A program made the translations under genes and the position numbers. Source: Neolewinella agarilytica (GTDB lineage: Bacteria; Bacteroidota; Bacteroidia; Chitinophagales; Saprospiraceae). Taken from it: 64,000 bases of DNA. The DNA is taken from contig NZ_FOFB01000028.1 of NCBI RefSeq assembly GCF_900110645.1, forward strand, positions 1 through 64,000, read 5' to 3'. Every line of letters starts with the position of its first letter. Position 1 is the first letter of the stretch. Below are positions 32,891 through 44,234 of this stretch, one piece after another. The notes below the pieces were generated by a model that saw nothing but the letters and a program-made list of their open reading frames with translations, was not told the DNA's origin and did no database searches.

Positions 32891-32898
32891 TATCTTTA
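32891..32898 (+). promoter_or_regulatory. -7-like element TATCTTTA
   Basis: Seven of eight positions fit TAnnTTTG. It lies 52 bases before the ATG of the sheath-like lipoprotein gene, giving it a promoter separate from gntP. Confidence 0.45.
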
Positions 32899-32949
32899 GA
32901 CAGTGTCCTTTACCCTGACCCCATTCAATTATACCTGGATTCCTGTACT

Positions 32950-34182
32950 ATGAAAAACACTTTAGCGCTCACGTTCCTTTATTTTATTCTCGCCTTTGGA
33001 TGCAGCCAGAAAACCACCATTCTGCCTGACACCGAGGTACCGACAACGCCGGAGGTAACCCCTCCCCCGGAAGAAGTCAGCACGGGTACCCCACTCTTTA
33101 TTGGTTATACGGAGCGAGCCACCGTAAATGGTGGCTCAGCGAGTAACCGGGCCGTGATGGTGAGTTCTCTGCAGGAATTCACCAACACTTTTGGCGGTGC
33201 TACTTCTCAAAGTTCAGTCCATTATTTATATCCAAGTATAGTAGAATTCTATGCCCATGGCGGAAAGACCTGTTATGTACTCTCCGTCGGAGATTATGCC
33301 TCCCCGATCCAAAAGGAAGATTTAATGGAGGCGGTGGAAATCTCCGCTCAAAGTGCAACGGGTGCGGATTTGATCGTGATCCCGGATGCCATGGCAATGG
33401 CGGCAGAAGATGGCTACGAAGTTTACCGTTCCGTGCTAAATCACTGTAGCCAACAAAGATCATGTGTAGGGATATTCGATGTCTATGGAGCGGGTCTGGC
33501 CGGGACCGACCCGCAAACCGCCATTGCCGGTTTCAGAAGTAACATCGGAGAGGAGCACCTTCGATTTGGCATCGCCTATTACCCCTGGGCAATAACGGAA
33601 AACGGAAGCCTGCCCATGGCAGGCATCATGGCGGGAATCATCGCCAGAACCGATCGCACCGAAGGAATCTGGAAAACACCCGCCAATAAAGCTTTACGCC
33701 CGGGCCTTCTGCCAGCAGCAACGGTCTCTACCGAAGACCAGGCGGAGCTAACCGTAGATGCCGCTGGTGGCAAATCCATTAACGCCATCCGGACCTTCAC
33801 CGGTCAGGGAACACTCGTCTGGGGTGGGCGGACACTGGACGGCAACAGCCTGGACTGGCGGTATATCTCGACCGTGAGAACATCTCTCATGATCGAAAAA
33901 GACATCACTCAGTTAGTGAAAGCCTTCGAATTCGAGCCGAATACGAGTAATACCTGGACCTCCATAAAGTCAGTCGTGGATAATTACCTGGGAGATCTCT
34001 GGAGATCGGGCGCACTTCAGGGGACCACGGCTGATAAAGCGTATGGCGTAAGGGTTGGTTTAGGAGAAACCATGACCTCCGAAGATGTTCTTCAGGGCCG
34101 GCTGCTGGTACAGGTTGTAGTCGCGCTGACCAGACCGGCAGAATTCCTTACTATTCACGTAACGCAGCAAATGCAGGAGTAG
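32950..34182 (+). CDS. Contractile-tail sheath homologue with lipoprotein signal peptide
   Basis: 410 residues. Residues 46-402 carry the landmarks of the contractile tail-sheath family (phage, eCIS/PVC and T6SSiv sheaths): GTPLFIGYTE (46-55), FYAHGGKTCYVLSVG, ADLIVIPDA, GIAYYPW (207-213), RTDRTEGIWKTPAN (233-246), GKSINAIRTFTGQGTLVWGGRTL (274-296), GLGETMTSEDVLQGRL and RPAEFLTIHV (395-404). The normal N-terminal arm is replaced by a hydrophobic signal (TLALTFLYFILAFG) ending in Cys18, a lipobox-like site, then a proline/threonine-rich linker. Sheaths are cytoplasmic, so a membrane-anchored one is unexpected. No tube, baseplate, spike or ClpV gene is nearby. Function unknown. Confidence 0.82.
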   Translation: MKNTLALTFLYFILAFGCSQKTTILPDTEVPTTPEVTPPPEEVSTGTPLFIGYTERATVNGGSASNRAVMVSSLQEFTNTFGGATSQSSVHYLYPSIVEFYAHGGKTCYVLSVGDYASPIQKEDLMEAVEISAQSATGADLIVIPDAMAMAAEDGYEVYRSVLNHCSQQRSCVGIFDVYGAGLAGTDPQTAIAGFRSNIGEEHLRFGIAYYPWAITENGSLPMAGIMAGIIARTDRTEGIWKTPANKALRPGLLPAATVSTEDQAELTVDAAGGKSINAIRTFTGQGTLVWGGRTLDGNSLDWRYISTVRTSLMIEKDITQLVKAFEFEPNTSNTWTSIKSVVDNYLGDLWRSGALQGTTADKAYGVRVGLGETMTSEDVLQGRLLVQVVVALTRPAEFLTIHVTQQMQE

Positions 34183-34338: not shown

Positions 34339-35253
34339 ATGAAAATATCAAAGCTCAGCTTCCCTTTGGCCTCCTTGTTTACCCTGATCCTTGTGACGAC
34401 TCTTCTGTCTTGTGGCAAGACAGAAGAAATCATGGAAGAAATGGAAGAAGTGATGGAAGAGGAAATGACTTCAGAAAGCGATGAAGACACCGGACCGATC
34501 GTTGAGTGCACTACAGAAGGCAATAATGCGGTACGGGATACAGACATTGCCAACCCCGTTAATGTAGGGACGGCTGATGACCGCAGCTGCTACGCCAACT
34601 ACAAGGAAAGTACCATTGACGGAACAACCTGGGGCGTATACAACATCACCTTCGGATCCAACCACCTGGATAATAACGGCCTGCAGCCCAGAATTGAACG
34701 ATCACTGAACCGATCACAGACTACCGGTATAGGGAGTTATGCCAGATTCACCGGAACGGTCAGAATTCTGGAAACCGGTAAAACAAACTCCGACGGTAGT
34801 GATGGCAGCTACATCATGCAGGCTAAAGGAAAGCATACTGGCGGCGGTGGTTCTGCAGACCCTGCCATCTGTCTGTACTTAGCCAAACCGGTTTACGGCA
34901 CCGATGCTGACGGCAATCAGGTGCAGGTATCATTTGATCTCTTCCGGGAGCAAATTAATTACCGTGGCGGGTCCGGCGCCGACGGCAGAGACATTGTTTT
35001 CCTGACCAACATTCCTAAAAATGAAGCCACCGACATTGAGCTGAAAGTTGGCTTCAGAGCTGACCCCGACAACCCCGATGCTAAGATTCACTACGCTGAC
35101 GCCGTTATTGGTGGCACCGAATTCAATTGGAACATCCCCGAGCCAGAGCGAGGAACCCAGTCGGGCATCCGATACGGCGCATACCGCGTTAAAGGCGGCA
35201 GAGCACAGATCCGATGGGCCAATACCACTTATGAGAAAGTGGAGATACAATAG
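34339..35253 (+). CDS. Hypothetical lipoprotein, jelly-roll-like
   Basis: 304 residues from the ATG at 34339. Lipoprotein signal ends LLSC with Cys25, then a very acidic Glu/Met-rich stretch ([15 protein letters not shown]). The remainder looks like a beta-sandwich: [51 protein letters not shown], and [27 protein letters not shown] at the end. The strand order recalls PL7-type alginate lyases and related lectins, but the RTExR catalytic motif is not intact (PRIERSL), so a binding role is as likely. It follows the sheath-like gene by 156 bases on the same strand. Confidence 0.7.
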
Positions 35254-43566: not shown

Positions 43567-43980
43567 CTACTCCCTCAACTTCAAATACTGATCAGCGGTC
43601 AGCACCGGTATTTTGGAATGCTTAAAATCGGGAAGGTTTCTGGTGATGATAACGTCAGCCCCAATCTCTACTGCGGAGTAATACTGAAGTCCGTCTTCAA
43701 AATCTTTGAAGTCTGAATCGTTTAGGGCTAGCTGAACAATCTTACCGTTCAGGTCGGTGATGCTTACGATTAGCTCTAAATCTCGCAAGACTTTAATCGT
43801 CTTTTCTTTGCCTAACAACTTACGGAGTATGTAATTCATATTAGCAAATGAAAGAGAGGATACATACAGATCAACTTTCTTATTGTCGCCCAAAGTGAAG
43901 AGTGCAGCGGCAGAAGCGTATTCTGGTCTTTTAGCGAGTAAGTCTAATATGATGTTAGTATCTATAAATAGCTTCTTCAT
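43567..43980 (-). CDS. PIN-domain toxin (VapC-like ribonuclease)
   Basis: 137 residues, the normal PIN length. The metal-binding acids are visible: DTN near residue 6-8 (FIDTNIILDLLAKRPEY), an Asp in FEDGLQYYSAVEIGADVIITRN, and the final D in LPDF. PIN toxins cleave tRNA or rRNA and stop growth. Its ATG overlaps the stop codon of the antitoxin gene by 4 bases (ATGA), so the two are translated together, the antitoxin first. The pair is AT-rich compared with flanking genes and lies between 28-bp direct repeats. Confidence 0.88.
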   Translation of the reverse strand: MKKLFIDTNIILDLLAKRPEYASAAALFTLGDNKKVDLYVSSLSFANMNYILRKLLGKEKTIKVLRDLELIVSITDLNGKIVQLALNDSDFKDFEDGLQYYSAVEIGADVIITRNLPDFKHSKIPVLTADQYLKLRE

Positions 43981-44234
43981 TTGTACTTCTCCGTTAGGTA
44001 GTCCGCGTAATCGGATTTGTAGTCGATTTTCGTATCATCGTCTAAGTCAATTACTCCGACCAGCCGGCTCACTAAGGGCGAAATTACGAGTTCTCCTTCC
44101 TCTCCTTCTGTGATAGTTAGTGTGGCTAAATAATTCTCAATCATGCGAGAGAGACTGACACCATGATCCCTGGCATAACTTTTTGCCTTTTCGACCACGA
44201 GTGCATTCAGACTTAAGGTGAGTTTCTTATCCAT
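43977..44234 (-). CDS. Antitoxin, DUF6364 type
   Basis: 85 residues, matching DUF6364 antitoxins paired with PIN toxins. The N terminus MDKKLTLSLNALVVEKAKSYARDHGVSLSRMIENYL is a ribbon-helix-helix-like DNA-binding segment; the acidic C terminus (VIDLDDDTKIDYKSDYADYLTEKYK) would wrap the toxin active site. First gene of the operon. A 9-bp inverted repeat upstream (44244-44276) is a likely autoregulatory operator. Confidence 0.85.
   Translation of the reverse strand: MDKKLTLSLNALVVEKAKSYARDHGVSLSRMIENYLATLTITEGEEGELVISPLVSRLVGVIDLDDDTKIDYKSDYADYLTEKYK

Follow-up and report, generated by a model that had tools for sequence, protein, structure and literature searches.

We have studied a gene for a homolog of contractile-tail sheath proteins, located in a 64,000-nucleotide stretch of the genome of Neolewinella agarilytica (here termed the window). 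Its product, P0001, is probably an exported lipoprotein that has no role in injection. We consider it likely that this is an exaptation, in which an eCIS-type sheath gene was parted from the other genes of the machine and acquired a lipoprotein signal. The features of the gene, in window coordinates, are:

32891..32900, + strand: TATCTTTAGA, a conserved upstream block with a weak resemblance to the Bacteroidota -7 box (from conservation)
32950..34182, + strand: lipoprotein sheath gene encoding P0001, 410 aa (from the ORF, Pfam, PDB matches, AlphaFold2, Foldseek and an ortholog)
32950..33000, + strand: predicted type II signal peptide, residues 1-17, MKNTLALTFLYFILAFG (from reading, retention in the ortholog P0002 and a hydrophobicity scan of all sheath ORFs)
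33001..33003, + strand: lipobox Cys18 (TGC), the predicted lipidated residue (each of the four lipoprotein sheaths has a Cys at this alignment position)
33004..33084, + strand: Pro/Thr-rich linker, residues 19-45, replacing the canonical N-arm (..TPGVYxxE..) (from alignment and low pLDDT)
33085..34179, + strand: sheath core, residues 46-410, lacking the extra domain that most related sheaths have at about residue 217 (from alignment, model and Foldseek)
33865..33921, + strand: helix 306-324, a candidate tube-attachment helix in which R309, S318 and K320 are lost (from model and alignment)
34132..34179, + strand: C-terminal arm, RPAEFLTIHVTQQMQE, retained (from alignment and near-invariant positions)

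A preliminary description of this DNA had placed a sheath homolog at 32950-34182, and both the coordinates and the reading were correct, with Pfam, phmmer, AlphaFold2 and Foldseek in agreement. GTPLFIGYTE follows residue 45, the further sheath motifs come in order, and RPAEF lies near the C terminus. In comparison with Pfam, Phage_sheath_1C (PF17482) was matched above the cut-off with E = 1.5e-10, and Phage_sheath_1 (PF04984) just below it with E = 1.2e-6. The eCIS sheath sequences of the PDB were matched by phmmer with E values from 8.5e-86 to 2e-30. An AlphaFold2 model calculated from a 105-row alignment reached pLDDT = 91.6 and pTM = 0.87; pLDDT is low only in the first ~40 residues, and the linker is disordered; given only three sequences, AlphaFold2 returned a pLDDT of 45. 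The top Foldseek matches to the model were the Anabaena (7b5h) and Algoriphagus (7ae0) sheaths, with E values of ~1e-35 (best 2e-35), so that the structural check proposed earlier does return a sheath fold. Since the input alignment consisted of sheath relatives, model and sequence do not count as independent lines of evidence. Judged from sequence and model together, the sheath homology of P0001 is far above chance, and the predicted fold is secure. The earlier account of the core was right about the sheath motifs, but had overlooked that the domain inserted at about residue 217 is also missing.

The N terminus of P0001 reads MKNTLALTFLYFILAFGC, and is then rich in Pro and Thr up to residue 45. 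It has the basic n-region, hydrophobic h-region and Cys within positions 15-35 of a lipoprotein. M1-K2, the hydrophobic stretch and Cys18 all recur in P0002, the ortholog with 69% identity. Within the first ~70 codons, start codons (ATG, GTG or TTG) occur only at codon 1 and codons 69-71, and no usable start was found in the upstream frame of the ORF. As codons 2-68 offer no start, translation could not begin after the signal without loss of the first core strand, and a cytoplasmic alternative start was thus ruled out. Homologs with a normal cytoplasmic start do exist, yet the close ortholog keeps the signal. The lipoprotein signal assigned earlier to residues 1-18 is therefore backed by both conservation in the ortholog and the forced start codon, and by its conservation in sequence we take the predicted signal to be real.

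The signal and linker take the place of the N-terminal arm, as had been claimed: the arm positions G27, V28, Y29 and E32 are all altered in P0001, and they are also lost in P0002 and in a further lipoprotein sheath, P0003. At 84 near-invariant positions the losses number 17 in P0001, 14 in P0002 and 11 in P0003, compared with a mean of 2.3 for canonical sheaths. In AlgoCIS the tube is contacted by an attachment helix in domain I, and a handshake weaves the subunits together (PMC8894135). Helix 306-324 of P0001 may be an attachment helix of this type, and its R309, S318 and K320 are lost in both P0001 and P0002. The charge of this presumed attachment helix did not separate exported from canonical sheaths; only single residues did so. 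RPAEF and the following strand are retained in P0001, as are the core motifs. With its C-arm and most of its core residues unchanged, P0001 may still be capable of some assembly.

P0001 shares its fold, core and C-arm with the eCIS sheaths (Alg2 of AlgoCIS, PDB 7AE0/7ADZ; All3325 of Anabaena, 7B5H; Afp2-4; Pvc2-4), with 22-30% identity in structural alignment by Foldseek. It differs from them in that a lipoprotein signal stands where they have the N-arm, the inserted outer domain is missing, export is predicted, and the genome search yielded neither a tube nor a gp25 baseplate gene. The one-domain (type 1) sheaths of 321-410 aa also have a single-domain core and are of similar length, but these belong to phages and CISs, and signal peptides or lipoproteins are not mentioned in their description (Evseev et al. 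2022, PMC9230969). In the terms by which eCIS and phage-type sheaths are recognized, P0001 has the sheath fold, the C-terminal domain homology and the C-terminal arm; it lacks the N-arm (TPGVYxxE) and a co-encoded tube or baseplate, and it carries an N-terminal export signal. P0001 thus belongs to the eCIS sheath family by sequence and fold, but not by its working features, namely the arm, the tube partner and cytoplasmic assembly.

The absence of an injection machine, noted earlier for 30 kb on each side of the gene, extends to the whole genome. The genome (74 contigs, estimated to be 100% complete) was searched in full; P0001 was the only sheath found, and the family searches found neither a tube (PF06841) nor a gp25 baseplate (PF04965) gene. 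On these searches for tube, gp25 and further sheaths, a CIS hidden elsewhere in this genome was rejected. The searches evidently work, since two congeners (G116 and G216) gave matches to both PF06841 and PF04965, and the relative G006 to the tube family. Neither family was found in G168, the genome that encodes P0003. The genome of the ortholog (G214, a MAG that is 55% complete) has one tube gene, L051 (G214:C194:115-510), at a contig edge beside an MFS transporter, and so that species may have a CIS.

P0002 comes from an uncultured Lewinella MAG, a second species, where it occupies the same locus (L031); the 69% identity extends over the whole length. This syntenic ortholog in an independent MAG rules out an assembly artefact. 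Comparison of P0001 and P0002 gave dS = 1.06 and dN/dS = 0.19. For seven neighboring genes compared between the window and L031, dS = 0.43-1.23 and dN/dS = 0.035-0.105. The dS of the sheath gene lies within the range of its neighbors, so that it has been diverging in this position for as long as they have. By these sequence measures the gene is under purifying selection. It is nonetheless the fastest-changing gene of its block, evolving 2-5 times faster than its neighbors, and the constraint on it is therefore moderate.

In both species the sheath gene follows gntP, encoding a GntP permease. The gene after the sheath in L031 is a TPR/LuxR gene; in G116 (locus L174) this gene stands directly after gntP, while in G202 (locus L177) the place directly after gntP is taken by the X-Pro peptidase gene found further downstream in the window. 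These empty sites indicate a single-gene insertion of the sheath, with neither tube nor baseplate. At 52.6%, its GC content is below that of gntP (59.7%) but near the window mean (53.6%). A phage, plasmid or viral-contig origin was considered and set aside, as no near relative was found among such sequences. No convincing exported sheath was present among 168 viral-contig sheath ORFs, where the four frames that were flagged lacked a basic n-region or began at internal start codons. The next gene, at 34339-35253, had been suggested as a partner; it encodes a PL28 ulvan lyase, is missing at the matching place in L031, and belongs to a family without a link to sheaths, and the suggestion was dropped. 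Elsewhere in the window, adjacent small genes at 43567-44234 (- strand) resemble a PIN-domain toxin and its antitoxin, as judged by reading.

A survey of ~1,500 genomes, mostly of the same phylum, took the best three candidates per genome among the matches listed, and export signals were judged by a hydrophobicity scan of the 217 distinct sheath ORFs with readable N termini. The canonical PGVY-type arm is present in 207 of these. Four are lipoproteins: P0001, P0002, P0003 (515 aa, from another genus of the family) and P0005 (393 aa, from genome G1065 of another family of the class). One more, L243:126-1388 (- strand) in G1098, has a signal peptide but no lipobox; its N-arm motif is intact, and arm loss is thus not required for export. 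G1098 also has canonical sheaths. Another frame, L166, looked exported but contains an internal, normal MATYNTPGVY start and was left out. In G168 and G1065 no sheath was found other than P0003 and P0005, respectively. Like P0001, the sheaths P0003, P0005 and L243 have an N-terminal export signal on a sheath core, and the adjoining DNA that was read shows no CIS-like gene (for L243 the contig stops a short way off). Unlike P0001, P0003 keeps the inserted domain, L243 has the N-arm and no lipobox, and P0005 lies in a different part of the sheath tree.

In a 34-row tree, in which the long branch of P0005 calls for some caution, constraining the four lipoproteins to group together cost 20.9 log-likelihood units (p-AU 0.001), and constraining all five exported sheaths together cost 28.7 units (p-AU 0.011). 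A single origin of all the exported sheaths is rejected by these tests, and with the common origin of the four lipoproteins rejected, the exported form has arisen at least twice. Taken alone, P0001/P0002 and P0003 may go back to a single event, which was not rejected and for which the support (66/14) is not decisive. The inserted outer domain is missing in four of the five exported sheaths, with cores of 355-367 aa (~363 aa in P0001) compared with a canonical median of 468 aa; the association of domain loss with export has a Fisher p ~1e-5, taking one count per lineage and ignoring relatedness.

Two further observations were made in the course of the survey. Directly upstream of P0005 on the same strand, at L240:10013-10819 (- strand), is a gene for a secreted Peptidase_M9-like (collagenase-type) protein, just under the cut-off, which was not seen at the other exported-sheath loci. 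In G027, L033:527-2470 (+ strand) encodes a 647-aa protein with a CHAT (caspase-like) domain (PF12770, above cut-off) and a divergent sheath domain. This fusion is another sheath re-used outside an injection cluster, in this case cytoplasmic, and is possibly a sensor.

Four alternative explanations are considered together. P0001 might form a self-assembling surface layer or filament, in which surface-exposed lipoprotein subunits polymerize outside the cell. Conservation of the C-arm and most sheath-core residues is consistent with this, and many Bacteroidota lipoproteins are surface exposed (PMC5080379). However, acidic residues just after the Cys are required in Bacteroidota surface lipoproteins, a rule set up in Capnocytophaga, Bacteroides and Flavobacterium that may differ in the present family (Lauber et al. 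2016, PMC5080379). Taking a LES-like tag to be at least two acidic residues shortly after the +1 Cys, none of the four lipoprotein sheaths has one (0, 1, 0 and 1 acidic residues at +2 to +7), whereas the adjacent PL28 lyase, itself a lipoprotein, does have an acidic tag of this kind after its Cys. Without such a tag after Cys18, P0001 is more likely to face the periplasm than to form a surface layer. The strand-donating N-arm that completes the handshake has moreover been lost in P0001, P0002 and P0003. The surface-layer reading, one of those put forward earlier, is weakened by both observations, and we regard it as improbable. A second earlier suggestion, a decoy or immunity protein that would block sheath assembly in an incoming CIS or in one of the cell's own, also loses ground: the sheath of an attacker remains inside the attacking cell or on an extracellular particle, and does not enter the periplasm of the target, where the lipid anchor would put P0001. 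No CIS was found in G000 (the present genome) or G168, and no match in the defence library PADLOC. So while a protein with C-arm and core intact could cap a growing sheath, and its dN/dS of 0.19 is the highest of its block, as might suit such a role, we consider it very unlikely.

The rapid evolution of the gene relative to its neighbors, and the loss of so many near-invariant residues, would also be expected of an accidental fusion or a decaying, functionless remnant of a CIS sheath. Yet 410 codons have remained intact at dS ~1 in two species, the same design has arisen at least twice, and the signal and Cys have been kept; decay is in our view highly improbable. Membrane-anchored CISs are known in other bacteria, for example the thylakoid-anchored CIS, and P0001 might by analogy be a membrane dock, a lipidated subunit that ties injection particles of its own or a neighboring cell to the envelope. 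The single tube gene of G214 would fit such a role, but no tube, gp25 or second sheath was found in G000 or G168, and a cytoplasmic CIS would be separated from a lipoprotein by the inner membrane. A dock is thus extremely unlikely.

We therefore return to exaptation. The earlier proposal of a sheath fold re-used at the envelope is supported by the fold, the lipoprotein signal and the lack of a machine in the genome. Sec export, Cys lipidation and Lol transport are established lipoprotein biology. By this route P0001 would cross the inner membrane by Sec, receive its lipid on Cys18 and reach the outer membrane through Lol, where it would probably face the periplasm. Because the donor N-arm is gone, a two-arm sheath lattice cannot be woven, and with no tube the work of contraction is impossible. 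P0001 would most likely be a tethered single subunit, or form short chains joined by the C-arm, and might serve as a non-contractile envelope scaffold or binding protein. Both localization and function are predictions, and the specific role of scaffold or binding protein is offered tentatively. The broader proposal that Bacteroidota sheath subunits have repeatedly been turned into exported envelope proteins that still assemble via the C-arm into non-contractile chains or lattices, which would be a novel type of scaffold made from a component of an injection machine, seems unlikely.

To our knowledge, every sheath protein described so far is a component of a contractile machine. We found no secreted or lipidated sheath in a literature search that lay outside most subscription journals and preprints, which is weak evidence of novelty. 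If our interpretation is correct, a sheath with predicted export and lipidation, which stands alone in two genomes where tube and gp25 genes were not found, is kept by selection and has evolved at least twice, would mean that the sheath fold is useful outside injection. In P0001 the arm, the inserted domain and three presumed tube-contacting residues are gone while the core is kept, and the protein could thus separate the features of a sheath needed for folding from those needed only for contraction. Since the recruitment of exported sheaths has been repeated, this question can be tested by comparing independent cases.
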